Positions 12,678-20,863 of a stretch of DNA of 64,000 bases are shown here, piece after piece (positions within the stretch are counted from its first letter, which is position 1; every line of letters starts with the position of its first letter). Source of the DNA: an uncultured Siphonobacter sp. (GTDB lineage Bacteria > Bacteroidota > Bacteroidia > Cytophagales > Spirosomataceae). The translations under genes were made by a program, and so were the position numbers. The notes beneath the pieces were generated by a model. The model did no database searches, had not been told where the DNA came from, and saw only the letters and a program-made list of their open reading frames with translations. The stretch spans positions 62,001-126,000 of the forward strand of contig CAJYIW010000013.1 in the NCBI GenBank assembly GCA_913775095.1, written 5' to 3'.

Positions 12678-13676
12678 ATGGTATTACTTGCCATCGAATC
12701 TTCCTGTGATGAAAGCTCCGCTGCGGTATTAGTGGACGGGCAGATTCGTTCCAATATTGTAGCCACTCAGCTCATTCATCAGCAATACGGCGGCGTGGTG
12801 CCCGAATTAGCCTCCAGAGCCCACCAGCAACACATCGTTTCGGTAGTTCAGGAAGCCCTTATCCAGGCCAAAGTTACAAAAAAGGACCTGAACGTAATTG
12901 CCTTTACCCGTGGTCCGGGCTTATTAGGAGCTTTACTGGTGGGAACTTCCTTTGCCAAATCGCTGGCCCTGGGTTTGAATATCCCGCTGGTGGACGTTCA
13001 CCACATGCAGGCTCACGTATTGGCTCACTTCCTGCAAACGCCACATCCGGCTCTTCCATTTCTGTGTTTAACAGTTTCCGGAGGACATACGCAAATTGTA
13101 CTCGTCCGGGATTACCTCGACATGGAAGTCATTGGCGAAACTCAGGACGATGCCGTGGGTGAAGCCTTTGACAAAACCGCTAAATTATTGAACCTGCCCT
13201 ATCCCGGCGGTCCTTTAATCGATAAATACGCGAAAGAAGGCAACCCCGAGCGGTTTCCTTTCCCGGTGGTGGACACGCCGAGACTCACCTATTCTTTCTC
13301 GGGCATCAAAACGGCTATTTTATACTTTTTAAAGAAAGAAACAGCTCAGAACCCGAACTTCATTGAAGAAAACCTGGCGGATATTTGTGCTTCGGTGCAG
13401 GCTGCTCTGGTTCGGACTTTACTGACCAAACTCAAACGGGCCGCCCGAGAAACGGGCATTCGGGAGATTGCCATCGCTGGCGGGGTTTCTGCTAATTCCG
13501 GTTTACGGAAAGAACTTCAGGAAACGGGCGAGAAACTCGGCTGGAACGTGTATGTCCCTGATTTCGAATATTGCACCGATAATGCCGCGATGATCGGCAT
13601 GGCGGGTTATTACAAGGCCGTTCGCGGGGAATTCTGCCCGCAGACGGTTTCGCCTTTGCCCCGAATGGACTGGTAA
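12678..13676 (+). CDS. tsaD: tRNA N6-adenosine threonylcarbamoyltransferase TsaD
   Basis: A 332-aa Kae1/TsaD protein that transfers the threonylcarbamoyl group to A37 of tRNA. The start MVLLAIESSCDESSAAVL and the metal-binding HHMQAH (residues 108-113) are diagnostic. The ASKHA-fold motifs SGGHTQ and GGVSANSGLR are present, and the C-terminus has CTDNAAMIG. The length is standard. It works with TsaE (3966-4397), which is in a separate operon here. It is convergent with the YffB-like gene, separated by a 22-bp perfect hairpin. Confidence 0.97.
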   Translation: MVLLAIESSCDESSAAVLVDGQIRSNIVATQLIHQQYGGVVPELASRAHQQHIVSVVQEALIQAKVTKKDLNVIAFTRGPGLLGALLVGTSFAKSLALGLNIPLVDVHHMQAHVLAHFLQTPHPALPFLCLTVSGGHTQIVLVRDYLDMEVIGETQDDAVGEAFDKTAKLLNLPYPGGPLIDKYAKEGNPERFPFPVVDTPRLTYSFSGIKTAILYFLKKETAQNPNFIEENLADICASVQAALVRTLLTKLKRAARETGIREIAIAGGVSANSGLRKELQETGEKLGWNVYVPDFEYCTDNAAMIGMAGYYKAVRGEFCPQTVSPLPRMDW

Positions 13677-13689
13677 TTGCCTATAGGCT

Positions 13690-13737
13690 AATCGGGCCAG
13701 GGGGATTATTATTTCTAATAATCCCCCTGGCCCGATT
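13690..13737. terminator. 22-bp perfect hairpin between convergent genes
   Basis: The arms at 13690-13711 and 13716-13737 are exact reverse complements, 22 bp with a 4-nt TTTC loop. The arm starts AATCGGGCCAGG. It lies between the convergent stop codons of tsaD and the YffB-like gene, so a bidirectional transcription stop is plausible, but neither side carries a T-run of the usual kind. Confidence 0.6.
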
Positions 13738-13751
13738 CCCTGATAAACCTA

Positions 13752-14090
13752 TCACTGAAACGTCTTTTCGTACTCGTCGGGCCTGAAGCCCAAAGCCACA
13801 ATTTTTCCCTCTGACTCAATCAAAGGGCGACGAATCACGGACGGTTTCTCCATCATTAAGGCCACGGCAGCAGCTTCGTCCGTTGGTTTTTCTTCCAGTT
13901 TTTTCCAGGTGGTCCCCGCTTTATTGACCAGTTCCTCCCACGATTTCTGGGTTAACCAGTTCTGAATGGTTTCCTGACTGATACCCTGTTTTTTATAATC
14001 GTGAAATTGATACGTAATGCCCCGATCGGCTAACCAGACGCGGGCTTTCTTTACAGTATCACAATTGGAAATGGCGTATAAGGTGTACAT
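13752..14090 (-). CDS. YffB/ArsC/Spx-family thioredoxin-fold protein
   Basis: A 112-aa protein starting MYTLYAISNCDTVKKA, which closely follows the E. coli YffB pattern, with the single active-site-like Cys10. It also has GTTWKKL, and RRPLIESEGKIVALGF near the C-terminus, both typical of the ArsC/Spx superfamily. The ATG at 14090 is chosen over a longer frame from 14168 because family homology starts there and the upstream residues are low complexity. The function of YffB is unknown (possibly glutathione-dependent). It is not a true Spx because the CxxC is missing. Confidence 0.85.
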   Translation of the reverse strand: MYTLYAISNCDTVKKARVWLADRGITYQFHDYKKQGISQETIQNWLTQKSWEELVNKAGTTWKKLEEKPTDEAAAVALMMEKPSVIRRPLIESEGKIVALGFRPDEYEKTFQ

Positions 14091-14170
14091 GAGTATAGTA
14101 TTCTGATAAGTGGAGCTGTTCTCAAGCGTTTTCAAGCCCGAAAACTGCCAACCAGCGTCGGATTTCATAA

Positions 14171-15551: not shown

Positions 15552-15721
15552 GTAAACGATTTTGCTGCAAATTTGAATAAGAATCAGCGACTTTGAGCAG
15601 TTTCACAGCCATTTGATGAACAGATTCTGGGAAAAATCATAATCAATGATACATTTCTTTGATTATACTGGATTTTTCCACCACATCATACAATTTAGTT
15701 GCAGAAGCGAACTCTTTACCC

Positions 15722-15728
15722 GTATTTT
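15722..15728 (+). promoter_or_regulatory. Candidate promoter of the DEAD-box helicase leader
   Basis: TATTTTG approximates the -7 consensus TAnnTTTG with one T missing. TTG of TAGTTGCAG lies 21 nt upstream as a possible -33. A start near 15735 would give a 5' leader of about 270 nt. Confidence 0.35.
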
Positions 15729-15734
15729 GCATTT

Positions 15735-16005
15735 GTATTTATAGCAGTGGAATATACACATAGTTCTACTGACTAAAAAGGCCTCCCGTCTGCCTTGCTC
15801 TGATTAGGTTCGCGTGCCGAACCCTCCTTTGTAGCTCACACTTTGGTCATCAGAAGCCCGACGGATGTGTAGGCATCGTTGTGGTTTATTTTACATCATT
15901 TTAAAACCGATTGTACCACAAACTTCCTGTTTGTGACGTCTTTGGTTACAGGTAGCCGCCTGTGGATGACCGGAGCACAAGGAACTCTTGTGGTATTACT
16001 AATTC
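15735..16005 (+). ncRNA. Long structured 5' leader of the DEAD-box helicase gene (candidate cis-regulatory RNA)
   Basis: No coding frame is convincing in this stretch. A nested structure is visible: GCCT (15781-15784) with AGGC (15871-15874); CCGTC (15786-15790) with GACGG (15860-15864); TCTGAT (15799-15804) with ATCAGA (15849-15854); and GGTTCG with CGAACC around CGTGC (15807-15823). Downstream, ACCACAA (15915-15921) can pair with TTGTGGT at 15879-15885 or at 15988-15994. Part of it also forms the hairpin CACAAAC / GTTTGTG (15917-15935). Hairpins ACAGG / CCTGT (15948-15963) and CACAAG / CTTGTG (15976-15992) lie just before the start codon. The mutually exclusive pairings suggest a switch. 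The strand is inferred from proximity to the helicase ATG. The other 5' part of this gap (15552-15734) holds only the hisB promoter region. Confidence 0.5.
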
Positions 16006-17745
16006 ATGGAGAATCAAATTTTATTTGCTGACCTGGGTCTTTCTGACGAGGTTAAGCAAGCCGTCGCGGAAATGGGTTTCGTGGCACCTTCGCCTATCCA
16101 GGCAGAATCTATTCCTCACTTACTTGAAGGTCGTGACGTTATTGGCCAGGCTCAAACGGGTACTGGTAAAACTGCCGCCTTTGGTATTCCCTTAATTGAC
16201 ATTATTGACCCCAATGAAAAAGTGATTCAGTCGCTTATTCTTTGCCCCACCCGCGAATTAGCGGTACAGGTATCAGAAGAGCTTCGCCGACTTGCTAAAT
16301 TCAAAAAGGGTGTATGGATTACTGCCATTTATGGTGGTGATAGCTATGAACGCCAGAACCGTGACCTGCGTAAAGGCTGCCAGATTGTGGTAGGAACGCC
16401 AGGACGGGTAATGGATCACATTGACCGTGGAACTCTGCGTCTGGATAATATTCGTTACATCGTATTAGATGAAGCGGATGAAATGCTGGACATGGGCTTC
16501 CGGGAAGATATTGAAACGGTATTGGCTGACTGTCCCGAAGATCGTCAAACGGTGTTCTTCTCGGCTACGATGCCTAAGCCTATCATGGATTTAACGAAAC
16601 GTTACCAGAAGAATCCTCAGCTGGTAAAAGTGACGAAGAACGAAGTAACAAACGTTAACATTGAACAAAGCTGGTACGCCGTTCGTCCGGATGCGAAGTT
16701 TGAAGCCATGTGCCGTCTGATTGATTTCCACCAAATCAAATTGATGCTGGTGTTTAGTAATCAGAAAGCACGGGTAGACGAAATCGTTGAGCAATTCCAG
16801 ATGCGGGGTTATGCCGCTGAAGGTCTGCACGGGGATATGCGTCAGGCTGCTCGTACTCAGGTTATGGGTAAGTTCCGGGCCGGTACAACGCAAATTCTGG
16901 TAGCAACGGACGTGGCCGCTCGTGGTATTGACGTAGACAGCGTGGAAGCCGTATTCAACTACGATGTTCCCATGGATTCTGAATACTATGTACACCGGAT
17001 TGGTCGTACGGGCCGGGCTGGTAAATCTGGAAAAGCCTTCACTTTGGCTTCAGGTTCAGAAAAATACCGTATCCGCGATATTCAGAACTATACGAAAGTA
17101 GAAATCACTCGTGGTAAATTACCCACGTTTGAAGATGTATTTGCGATCAAGAAAACCCGTTTCATCGAACGCGTACAGCAGACGATTGAAGAAGGTACTT
17201 CTGAGTTTTACGCTGACGTATTAAGCACCCTGGAAGAAGCGGGACACGAGCCAGCAGCTATCGTATCTGCTTTAGCCCAGATGAACTTAGGTGGCGTAAA
17301 AACGACCGAAGATAACCTGGAAGAACAACCTCGTAATAATAAATTCGAAGGTCGTGATTCCCGCGGTGGTGATCGCAACGGTCGCTTCGGCGAGCGTCGC
17401 AGCAACGATCGTTTCGGTGATCGTCGTGGCAACACGGCTGAACGTAACGGTAACACGCGTGAGCGGGTAGACCGTGAAGGAAAACCTTTCCGTCGGGGTG
17501 CAGATGCCGGTATGGTTCGTCTGTTCATCAACATCGGGAAGAACTTCAAAATCACGCCTAGTCACATCGTTGGAGCCATCACTGGCGAAACCGGTCTGCC
17601 TGGTAAAGTGATTGGTCAAATTGATTTATTTGACAGCTATTCATTCGTAGACGTACCGAAAGAACACCACCAAACGGTTCTGAGTGCTCTGGATGGCAAC
17701 ACCATCAAAGGCAAACGCGTCAACGTTGAAGTAGCGAAAGGGTAA
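16006..17745 (+). CDS. DEAD-box ATP-dependent RNA helicase with DbpA-type RNA-binding domain
   Basis: A 579-aa helicase of the DeaD/CsdA group. Motifs in order: Q motif PSPIQ (residues 28-32), Walker A AQTGTGKT (49-56), PTRELA, TPGRVMD, DEAD (155-158), SAT (186-188), ATDVAARGIDV and HRIGRTGRAG. A low-complexity Arg/Gly/Asp-rich linker (about 440-495) precedes a C-terminal DbpA-like RNA-binding domain (about 505-579). These enzymes remodel rRNA and mRNA, often in the cold. Codon use looks highly biased (CGT, GGT), as for an abundant protein. The long structured leader suggests autoregulation, as is known for some cold-induced helicase mRNAs. Confidence 0.95.
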   Translation: MENQILFADLGLSDEVKQAVAEMGFVAPSPIQAESIPHLLEGRDVIGQAQTGTGKTAAFGIPLIDIIDPNEKVIQSLILCPTRELAVQVSEELRRLAKFKKGVWITAIYGGDSYERQNRDLRKGCQIVVGTPGRVMDHIDRGTLRLDNIRYIVLDEADEMLDMGFREDIETVLADCPEDRQTVFFSATMPKPIMDLTKRYQKNPQLVKVTKNEVTNVNIEQSWYAVRPDAKFEAMCRLIDFHQIKLMLVFSNQKARVDEIVEQFQMRGYAAEGLHGDMRQAARTQVMGKFRAGTTQILVATDVAARGIDVDSVEAVFNYDVPMDSEYYVHRIGRTGRAGKSGKAFTLASGSEKYRIRDIQNYTKVEITRGKLPTFEDVFAIKKTRFIERVQQTIEEGTSEFYADVLSTLEEAGHEPAAIVSALAQMNLGGVKTTEDNLEEQPRNNKFEGRDSRGGDRNGRFGERRSNDRFGDRRGNTAERNGNTRERVDREGKPFRRGADAGMVRLFINIGKNFKITPSHIVGAITGETGLPGKVIGQIDLFDSYSFVDVPKEHHQTVLSALDGNTIKGKRVNVEVAKG

Positions 17746-18536: not shown

Positions 18537-18655
18537 TATCCCTGCCCCCTCAGCCAAACATTAGGTACACTCACTCGTTATTTATTTGATTGATTATCCA
18601 GGGCTTATTCGTAGAGGAAAGACCCGTCTATTTTTCAACCTTATCATACATTCCC

Positions 18656-19264
18656 ATGATCGCTTCAAAAAACCTACGTCGTTTCTTTACTATCGGAGCA
18701 TTGCTAATGCTGCTTATTCCCGCCGCTAAAGCTCAGGTAGCTTTTAGCCTACACGGAACACTGGCAGCTCCTACTCTGGATGATGCCAATACCCGGGGCG
18801 GAGCCGGAGCTAACCTGAAATTTTTCCTTGGTAAGCAGTTTGCCATTGGAGCCGCCGCCAAGTACATCAGTCTTTCATACGAAGCCAACGATAACCTGGA
18901 CCTACAGGCGATCGGCTCATTGATTCCCTTGACCGTTACTGCTGACTACTACCTTACTTCCGGTTTCCTCCGCCCCTATATTGGTGGGGAAGCGGGAGCC
19001 TATATTCAGCGTTTTGACTTACGTCAGGGCAATAACGACCTGTACTCCTCTAAAAGTACCCGCTTTGGAGCAGCCCCAAAAGTTGGGTTGGCCATCGCCA
19101 TCGGGAATCTGGGTATCTTTGCGGAAGGTAATTACCACTTCATTTTCTCGAACAAAGACGGAAGTGCAAACATCGGTTCAAGCCGCAATGTAAACTTCAA
19201 GAATCCCCAGAACCTCTGGTCGGTAAATGCCGGAATTACCTTCGGTTTTCCTAACTCCAATTAA
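18656..19264 (+). CDS. Outer-membrane beta-barrel protein, tandem paralogue 1 of 3
   Basis: A 202-aa protein with a signal peptide (MIASKNLRRFFTIGALLM..., cut near AKA-Q) followed by alternating hydrophobic strands. It has the shared family motifs FSLHGT, GAAAKYI, SLSY, LRPYIGGEAGAYI and FGAAPKVG and the terminal aromatic-rich strand VNAGITFGFP. The overall look is an eight-stranded OmpA/OmpX-like barrel (porin-family, outer-membrane beta-barrel). The start at 18656 is set by the signal peptide. Paralogues follow at 19470 and 20252; this copy is clearly closer to the third than to the second. Its role is unknown. Confidence 0.8.
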   Translation: MIASKNLRRFFTIGALLMLLIPAAKAQVAFSLHGTLAAPTLDDANTRGGAGANLKFFLGKQFAIGAAAKYISLSYEANDNLDLQAIGSLIPLTVTADYYLTSGFLRPYIGGEAGAYIQRFDLRQGNNDLYSSKSTRFGAAPKVGLAIAIGNLGIFAEGNYHFIFSNKDGSANIGSSRNVNFKNPQNLWSVNAGITFGFPNSN

Positions 19265-19330
19265 TCTACGTTCCCTGGCTTGAAAAGGAAGTTACTCCTC
19301 ATTCTATAGACAAAAGCCCTCTTTTTATTG

Positions 19331-19370
19331 AAAAAGTACTAATTATATGGATATAATTAGTACTTTTTTT
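19331..19370 (+). terminator. Terminator between beta-barrel paralogues 1 and 2
   Basis: A perfect 17-bp stem (19331-19347 with 19352-19368; arm AAAAAGTACTAATTATA), loop TGGA, ending in TTTTTTT. Confidence 0.85.
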
Positions 19371-19469
19371 ATTTTACCTTGGTGTATATTTCCATTCTAA
19401 ACGGACGTTAGTGACCGATACAGCATAAGGTATTCCCGATGCTTTTTCATTCATCAGTTCTCGTATTAT

Positions 19470-20078
19470 ATGAAATTTACACCTTTGATTACGCGTTTAC
19501 TGGGGTTTGCCCCCTTGCTTTTTGTTACCTTCATGGCTCAGGGTCAGATGTCCTACAGCGTTCATGCAACAGGAGCGATTGCCAATTATCCCTATGCTTC
19601 TTTTAAGCCGGGCGGAGGTGTGAGTGCCCGCTTATTTATCAGTCCTTCGTTTGCCGTTGGGATGGCCGCTAAATATACTTCGCTGGAATACAGGCACAAA
19701 CAGTCCTCTTCTTCGATTATTACAAATACGGGTGCTCTCATTCCTGTCACAGCTACGGCAGAAGTGTACTTAAGTAAAGGCTTCGTTCGACCTTACCTTG
19801 TTCTGGAAGCAGGAGCCTATGTGCATGTTCTGAAAACGAACGTAGAAGCGAATGGGCGTTACCAACGCACTTATTTGAAGCCAGGAATGGCTCCCAAATT
19901 GGGTATATCCTTCAAAATCAATAAATTATCCTTATTTACAGAAGGCTCTTATTCCTTTTTAATAGGAAGCACCAATGGTAGTGTGACCGATCAGACCGTC
20001 AGATTTAAATGGCCTACACCTAATCAATACTGGCTTTTCAATGCCGGAGTTGCCGTGGGAATCCCTCATTCAAAATAA
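19470..20078 (+). CDS. Outer-membrane beta-barrel protein, tandem paralogue 2 of 3
   Basis: A 202-aa exported protein (signal peptide MKFTPLITRLLGFAPLLF..., cut near AQG-Q). It has the same barrel plan as its neighbours: YSVHATG, GMAAKYTSLEY, FVRPYLVLEAGAYV, PKLGISF and the terminal FNAGVAVGIP. It is the most divergent copy, with a lysine/threonine-rich middle loop. There are no Cys and no lipobox. It is separated from copies 1 and 3 by their own terminators, so the three genes are probably separate transcripts. Confidence 0.8.
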   Translation: MKFTPLITRLLGFAPLLFVTFMAQGQMSYSVHATGAIANYPYASFKPGGGVSARLFISPSFAVGMAAKYTSLEYRHKQSSSSIITNTGALIPVTATAEVYLSKGFVRPYLVLEAGAYVHVLKTNVEANGRYQRTYLKPGMAPKLGISFKINKLSLFTEGSYSFLIGSTNGSVTDQTVRFKWPTPNQYWLFNAGVAVGIPHSK

Positions 20079-20175
20079 TCTTTGGCATAAATTACTCAAT
20101 CCTGATCCCCTAAAGAGGTAAATACTTATAACAAAACTCCCATTTTGTAGATATTATTACACAACAATTAAACGT

Positions 20176-20212
20176 ATGCCAAGCCATATAGAAGGCTTGG
20201 CATCTTTTTTTA
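20176..20212 (+). terminator. Terminator between beta-barrel paralogues 2 and 3
   Basis: Stem ATGCCAAGCC (20176-20185) with GGCTTGGCAT (20194-20203), followed by CTTTTTTT. Confidence 0.9.
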
Positions 20213-20251
20213 TATTACTTAAGTACAATTATTATAACTAGACAACTATCC

Positions 20252-20863
20252 ATGAAAACAATTCGATTTTACGCTAGTATGGCTTTGGTAGCCCTGTTAG
20301 CTACCTTCAGCACAAAATCATTCGCACAGGTTGGCTTTACGCTTCACGGAACGGCTGCCGCTCCTAATCTGGATGGTGCTCAGGTAAAACCCGGTGTTGG
20401 AGCAGGTCTGAAAGTATTCCTGGGTCCTAACGTAGCCGTAGGTGCTGCTGCAAAATACATCGCCTTATCGTACGACTATAACCAGTCTGTAGGGCAAAAC
20501 GTAGAAAACAAAGGTTCATTGGTCCCCATCACAGGCACACTGGACATCTTCCTGACTAGCGGTGTCGTACGTCCTTATATCGGAGCTGAAGCTGGTGCTT
20601 ACATTCGTAATACCAAAGCAACGATCTTGGGAACTGAATACAAAAACTCACGTACCAACTTTGGTGCCGCTCCTAAACTTGGGGTAGCCTTTGCTCTGGG
20701 TGGTGTTGGACTTTTCGCTGAAGGTGCTTATAACTTCATCTTCGGTAACAAAAACGGTAGTGCAAACATTGGTTCCGGTAGTAACATTAACTGGGAAAAC
20801 CCAAGCAAGCTTTGGGCGGTTAACGTGGGTGTAACCTTTGGTTTCCCTCGCACGAACCCCTAG
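20252..20863 (+). CDS. Outer-membrane beta-barrel protein, tandem paralogue 3 of 3
   Basis: A 203-aa exported barrel (signal peptide MKTIRFYASMALVALLATF..., cut near SFA-Q). Motifs shared with copy 1: FTLHGT, GAAAKYIALSY, VVRPYIGAEAGAYI, FGAAPKLGVAF, GNKNGSANIGS and the terminal VNVGVTFGFP. Codon use is the most strongly biased of the three (CGT, GGT, GCT), which suggests high expression. It ends 10 bp before the convergent methyltransferase gene, with no visible terminator between. Confidence 0.82.
   Translation: MKTIRFYASMALVALLATFSTKSFAQVGFTLHGTAAAPNLDGAQVKPGVGAGLKVFLGPNVAVGAAAKYIALSYDYNQSVGQNVENKGSLVPITGTLDIFLTSGVVRPYIGAEAGAYIRNTKATILGTEYKNSRTNFGAAPKLGVAFALGGVGLFAEGAYNFIFGNKNGSANIGSGSNINWENPSKLWAVNVGVTFGFPRTNP

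Follow-up and report, generated by a model that had tools for sequence, protein, structure and literature searches.

Related systems

The mRNAs for cold-shock proteins of the cspA type in Escherichia coli carry a long 5' leader with alternative folds in front of a gene of the RNA-chaperone class, and the 5' UTR of rne serves as the feedback leader of RNase E. In a window of 64,000 nucleotides (the whole stretch of DNA that was analysed, from an uncultured Siphonobacter sp.), the region upstream of a DEAD-box RNA helicase gene resembles the cspA-type leaders in its length, its alternative folds and the RNA-chaperone class of its gene, but no sequence or Rfam similarity to them was found and the fold predicted for the window is independent of temperature. 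It shares with the rne 5' UTR the principle of a structured leader that would let an RNA-processing enzyme regulate the mRNA it is made from, whereas the gene and the structure are different and the window leader has no Rfam match. The crhR gene of Synechocystis likewise encodes a DEAD-box helicase, and its regulation, which responds to temperature and to CrhR itself, includes post-transcriptional steps (PMC3485376). Autoregulation is known for crhR, while for the window leader we only infer it; moreover, the abstract of that paper names no conserved leader structure, and the two organisms belong to different phyla. The 104 structured-RNA candidate motifs in PMC2864571, several of them from Bacteroidetes, are covarying cis-regulatory RNA candidates as is the one presented here, but the text of that paper contains none of the terms 'helicase', 'Spirosoma' or 'Cytophaga'. 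Our literature search, which covered papers outside subscription, returned no mention of a helicase-leader element, and the terms searched for did not occur in PMC8040213.

The best explanation overall, to which we assign a probability of roughly 0.5, is a folding cis-regulatory leader with a choice between two states and feedback by the helicase; positions 15740-16005 would then be the 5' untranslated leader of the predicted helicase mRNA.

The helicase gene and its promoter

The gene at 16006-17745 on the forward strand encodes a DEAD-box RNA helicase of the DeaD/CshA type with a C-terminal DbpA RNA-binding domain (Pfam DEAD, Helicase_C, DbpA and DeaD_dimer), and we count this domain in favour of the best explanation. 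The best NCBIfam matches of the protein, to the CshA, DbpA and DeaD families, are all under their cut-offs. An ortholog is found in 147 of the 150 family genomes at E<=1e-120, and the divergent neighbour of the gene in the window is hisB.

The motif TAnnTTTG is the -7 box of Bacteroidota. A predicted promoter at 15699-15730 on the forward strand consists of TTG (15699-15701), a 21-nt spacer and TATTTTGC (15723-15730), a near match that is one base off this consensus, and TTG...TTTTGC is retained in the related loci L004 and L006. Other genera have the full TAnnTTTG box 17-29 nt upstream of the outer helix P1, which lies further downstream of the box in the window owing to an additional hairpin, P0. 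A transcription start near 15980, which the original prediction had named as contrary to a structured leader, appears disfavoured, since in other genera a promoter-like box precedes the element at a fixed distance.

Elsewhere in the window, a strong hairpin at 13684-13742 (GGGCCAGGGGGATTATTA...TAATAATCCCCCTGGCCC), which has chance microRNA matches in Rfam, lies between the convergent genes 12678-13676 on the forward and 13752-14168 on the reverse strand and is probably their shared terminator. Three adjacent open reading frames within 18590-20863 (starting at 18590, 19470 and 20252) encode small outer-membrane-type proteins that are similar by eye, and these are apparently tandem paralogs.

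Stems of the window leader

The stems and repeated words from which the original prediction had proposed a switch-like leader are all present in the window, on the forward strand. The 5' cluster begins with P0 at 15745-15771 (CAGTGGAA/TTCTACTG), which is present in the minimum free energy (MFE) structure and retained as a hairpin in each relative (GGCAG/CTGC in L004, CGGCA/TGCCG in L006). It continues with P1, in which GCCT (15781-15784) pairs with AGGC (15871-15874) and CCGTC (15786-15790) with GACGG (15860-15864), and which corresponds by position to the P1 of the family. P2, formed by TCTGAT (15799-15804) and ATCAGA (15849-15854), is the counterpart of CUCUG/CAGAG in the family, a helix that covaries there, and the apical hairpin P3, GGTTCG (15807-15812) with CGAACC (15818-15823), shows a compensatory change from U-A to C-G in L006 (GGTCCG/CGGACC). 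The 5' strand of P1 is also contained in a local hairpin AAGGC/GCCTT at 15778-15796 that resembles the hairpin Ha of other genera, and its 3' strand (GACGG) stands in the stem of Hb, a bulged hairpin of 14 bp at 15854-15887 that is followed by the terminator-like UUUAUUUU at 15885-15892. Moreover, CUUUGGUCAUC (15841-15851) forms a long-range helix, LR, with GAUGACCGGAG (15965-15975) in the MFE structure, which overlaps the 3' strand of P2. In the second cluster, TTGTGGT occurs at 15879 and 15988, ACCACAA at 15915 and GTTTGTG at 15929; the hairpin CACAAAC/GTTTGTG, whose 5' part is able to form a transient pairing with TTGTGGT at 15879-15885, occupies 15915-15935. A start-proximal hairpin, CACAAG (15976-15981) with CTTGTG (15987-15992), ends 13 nt before the ATG at 16006, where a distance of 14 nt had been given before.

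The region 15735-16005 folds with an MFE of -83.6 kcal/mol compared with a mean of -67.8 in shuffled sequences (z -3.2; 2 of 200 shuffles as good). Hb alone reaches -13.4 kcal/mol (z -3.47; 0 of 200), while the segment of 89 nt that holds P1, P2 and P3 does not fold better than shuffles when taken alone (z +0.61; 149 of 200 as good). For the ensemble of the full-length leader, a probability of 0.00 is predicted for P1 and P2, which are replaced by Hb and by LR, the latter absent from the original prediction.

A conserved element in Spirosomataceae

A DNA similarity search with the leader matched only 6 of 39 genomes, all of one genus, and a search based on structure was therefore needed. Upstream of helicase orthologs in other genera of the family, where the original prediction had suggested looking, a shared layout was found, consisting of the box TAnnTTTG, P1 (approximately ACAUCCGU/ACGGAUGU), P2 (CUCUG/CAGAG) nested within it, a variable apex and the closing strands. 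A covariance model built from 7 leaders of other genera (R1) recovered the held-out leaders L017, L022, L023, L008 and L016 at E<1e-4. Among 291 genomes of the order, 41 had a match at E<=1, and 11 of the 30 fetched loci precede the helicase gene, namely the ten best-scoring ones and L050. R1 also matched 60 of 100 further fetched upstream regions in the sense direction at E<0.05; many antisense echoes score as well because P1 and P2 are nearly palindromic pairs. The second model (R2), built from the alignment A7 described below, gave matches in 79 of the 150 family genomes at E<=0.5, and the 54 best of its matches (E<=2.2e-4) each precede the helicase gene by 30-657 nt, while none of the six that come next (numbers 55-60) is placed in this way. 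A descriptor of box, P1 and P2 reached a score of at least 15 in 114 of 135 family leaders compared with 3.7% of shuffles. Matches of R2 outside the family (best E 9.4e-5 in the order and 1.6e-4 in the phylum) were taken as noise, since the helicase gene is present at just one of the 17 loci that were checked (L247-L263), namely L247, which belongs to the family.

The original prediction recognised no known RNA class in the leader, and a search of Rfam 15, in which nothing matched the leader at E values of up to 5, agreed with it. Eleven related leader loci searched up to E 3 gave no family at its gathering score, and their weak matches mark no shared family. The element is thus uncatalogued, matching no catalogued RNA family, and is a new cis-regulatory RNA candidate. 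Sequence comparison shows it as a nested P1-P2 structure around a variable apical domain, placed at the 5' end of the putative transcript and attached to one gene. On the evidence from the family, we consider it very probable that this is a conserved cis-regulatory RNA of the helicase gene.

The apex has no constant core and ranges in length from about 30 to 175 nt; nearly all conserved positions belong to P1 and P2. This bears on the idea that P1-P2 and the apex form a riboswitch binding a small metabolite. Alternative folds with a common strand and a single dedicated cis position would suit such a riboswitch, but the lack of a constant apical core, the control of a helicase instead of a metabolic or transport gene and the lack of an Rfam match make it very unlikely.

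Several leaders depart from the common layout. In genus g140 (L083, L093, L111 and L113), the apex is expanded to 107-175 nt, with repeats of the AAAGTT and AACTCT type in L093, which suggests that the apex is under little constraint. Six leaders found by the descriptor (L129, L131, L134 and L140-L142), Runella-type leaders among them, retain CUCUG...CAGAG with the outer helix ACUGCA/UGCAGU instead of P1 and carry a hairpin ACGAAC/GUUCGU; R2 did not match the three of them that were tested (L129, L134 and L140). Leaders of the Dyadobacter type (L037-L039, L041, L043, L045, L046, L125 and L127) share a conserved stretch resembling TTGTGGTGGGCTTTGCGCAATCCC downstream of P1. Species nevertheless differ in the frame that is read from the AUG in front of it, which points to a constraint at the RNA level, and an upstream reading frame from the AUG of CGGAUG was rejected, given that frames and lengths, compared by eye in the Dyadobacter type, differ even where nucleotides are conserved.

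Covariation of P1 and P2

Covariation was assessed in an alignment (A7) of 29 hand-picked leaders with the apex trimmed and the genus of the window excluded. It uses 29 of 31 seeds, L020 and L086 being omitted for an ambiguous P2; the MAFFT alignments A1-A3 were dropped with P1 or P2 misplaced, and A5, in which sense and antisense matches were mixed, was left unused. In P1 and P2 together, 90.5% of cells are paired compared with 30-49% in slid versions, a percentage that is biased because the rows were chosen partly by P1 complementarity, which affects double changes less. Cells with double changes numbered 17 compared with 5.3 in shuffles (0 of 500 as high), and the covariation score was 0.196 compared with 0.118 (0 of 500). 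Six pairs had changed on both sides compared with 3.4 (16 of 500 shuffles), the control slid by -2 giving 7, and 17 further pair types were present compared with 14.2 (27 of 500), the same control giving 18. The original prediction would have been refuted by a lack of compensatory changes in relatives; such changes were found in P1 and P2 and, as set out below, in Hb.

G-U pairs are tolerated in both helices of A7, which favours RNA over DNA. The inverted repeats could otherwise belong to an operator acting at the level of DNA, for which the position just downstream of the predicted promoter would be suitable, but nested repeats with arms about 30 to 175 nt apart and G-U tolerance fit RNA helices, and we regard an operator as most improbable.

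Relation of the window leader to the family

The genus of the window is divergent. With filters off, R1 gave the window leader 5.0 bits at E 0.3, ranking second in 411 bases, which is not significant; R2 found nothing over it in a default search and, with filters off, matched 15847-15868 alone (E 0.4-0.7). Of the five matches that R2 had in the genome from which the window comes, the best had E 2.6 and none lies at the leader. The sister leader L067 and Runella-type leaders are likewise unmatched by R1 and R2, and the descriptor fails in all six loci of the window genus (L001-L006). P1 is invariant within the genus except for AGGC to TGGC in L006 and shows no covariation there.

The place of the window leader in the family is based on gene, order of parts, promoter, sister and conservation. 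It lies directly upstream of the orthologous helicase gene, after a promoter-like box, and it can be aligned with L067 of the sister genus, the two having TCTGAT...GGTCATCAG, TTTGGTCATCAG and AGCCC in common. Among three lineages of the genus, core columns 42-156 are identical at 114/115, 104/115 and 104/115 positions (90-99%), and third codon positions of the helicase in the same species are 55-61% identical. The 34 columns from the start-proximal hairpin to the ATG are identical at 30-33 positions, and P0 at only 12-21 of 37-41. We therefore judge the window leader a likely, although diverged, member of the family element.

Alternative folds

When the growing transcript of the window was folded at equilibrium, P2 and P3 formed first, with P1 partial (0.30-0.54 with the RNA end at 15868, then 0), followed by Hb, by a transient pairing of 15879 with 15915 and by the final fold with Hb (0.91), LR (1.00), CACAAAC/GTTTGTG and the start-proximal hairpin, which has a probability of 0.89-1.00 in RNA ending at 16005. 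The original prediction had the two TTGTGGT words compete for ACCACAA. The words are there and their pairings are mutually exclusive, but the pairing with 15879 appears in the predictions solely when the transcript ends near 15921 (0.89-0.94), that with 15988 has a probability of 0.00 at all 36 combinations of length and temperature, and the genus has no compensatory change, the sole change from ACCACAA to ACCGCAA being neutral through G-U pairing. The final partner of the ACCACAA segment is ACAAAC/GTTTGT in the 15917:15929 region (0.98-1.00), and the pairs of CACAAAC/GTTTGTG are retained in L004-L006 with one G-U change. It is the 5' cluster, not this second cluster, that is conserved across the family. 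LR exceeds shuffles in the window (p 0.008) and in L004 and L006 (p 0.016 each), with p 0.25 in L067; L006 retains it with two changes from U-A to U-G, and none of 33 leaders of other genera has a helix of this type at p<=0.05. LR is a feature at genus level.

DEAD-box helicases of the DeaD/CshA kind are often cold-induced. A cold thermosensor like that of the cspA mRNA, in which the leader itself switches with temperature and the helicase protein has no role, would be in line with the existence of alternative folds and with the cold induction of CrhR (PMC3485376). For the window, the same final fold is predicted at 10, 25 and 37 C, in an equilibrium calculation that does not extend to kinetic effects, and the number of leaders that lose P1 by +110 nt barely differs between 37 C (16 of 34) and 15 C (18 of 34), which leaves a thermosensor rather unlikely. 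Of the proposed switch-like leader, the structure, the strong conservation and the mutually exclusive pairings hold in the window, but no temperature effect is predicted there.

In the Flectobacillus/Aquirufa-type clade (A8, 11 rows), Hb has 22 cells with double changes compared with 8.9 in shuffles and a score of 0.442 compared with 0.156 (0 of 500 in both), changes that reflect mainly two sequence types; neither the number of pairs changed on both sides (6 vs 5.5) nor that of additional pair types (7 vs 8.0) stands out from the shuffles. Ha, a 5' hairpin with the loop AUCC and at least 4 pairs, occurs in 22 of 53 distinct leaders compared with a shuffled mean of 7.2 and maximum of 14, a count made on 104 of 141 loci, with 37 skipped that have no AUCC frame, the window genus among them. 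At least 3 bases of the P1 3' strand pair downstream in 28 of 30 genus labels in the MFE structure of a short segment, one g2 locus (L077) being treated as a separate genus in this count and the next. With a matched control, the complementarity of this strand to downstream sequence does not exceed chance, p<=0.1 being reached by 3 of 30 leaders (Fisher p 0.32). P1 forms first in all 34 leaders folded as growing transcripts, partly by construction, and it persists in 18 of them at 37 C.

These last results would suit an element that binds a protein (the DbpA-type domain of the helicase, an RNase or another protein) or governs mRNA stability or processing, with no switching and with Hb and the other alternatives incidental, and the conserved CUCUG/CAGAG sequence within a helix hints at recognition. 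The covariation of Hb in the Flectobacillus/Aquirufa-type clade and its stability in the window, far above shuffles, speak against such a static element, which we hold to be fairly improbable. DbpA binds a 23S rRNA hairpin, and UGUUCG, considered as a mimic of it, is found within Hb in certain leaders such as L008 and is absent from the window.

For the two-state leader, we could show in part that Hb offers the 3' strand of P1 a potential alternative partner, with the RNA predicted to hold P1-P2 or Hb and not both. The modelled folds support bistability in some clades, not in general. That the leader works by exchange between two folds is in our judgement an evenly balanced proposition on these predictions, and a switch common to the whole family, in which strands with the AUCC/GGAU core stand in separate hairpins or in a long P1 duplex and the exchange needs helicase activity and sets helicase expression, seems unlikely.

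Proposed mechanism and significance

We hypothesize that, as transcription proceeds, P1-P2 is the first to form, with Hb and LR following later, and that the choice of fold would set helicase expression. This could occur through termination where a U-rich tract follows Hb, as in the genus of the window and in genus g134; the succession of Hb and UUUAUUUU in the window is compatible with attenuation, and a terminator scan did not list it. In the Flectobacillus/Aquirufa-type clade, Hb has no U tract, and where it sits just before the ATG, as in the Aquirufa type, access to the start codon could be controlled instead. The likeliest input would be the RNA-remodelling capacity of the cell, i.e., feedback of the helicase on its own leader, with cold as a possible physiological trigger, but that the helicase itself is the input is a tentative and somewhat doubtful suggestion.

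Few cis-regulatory RNAs are known from this phylum, and the element is an uncatalogued candidate for which 135 natural variants have been aligned. Should the leader prove to respond to helicase activity, DEAD-box function could be measured inside cells with a compact system, and a route would open to understanding how bacteria set the levels of their RNA chaperones.
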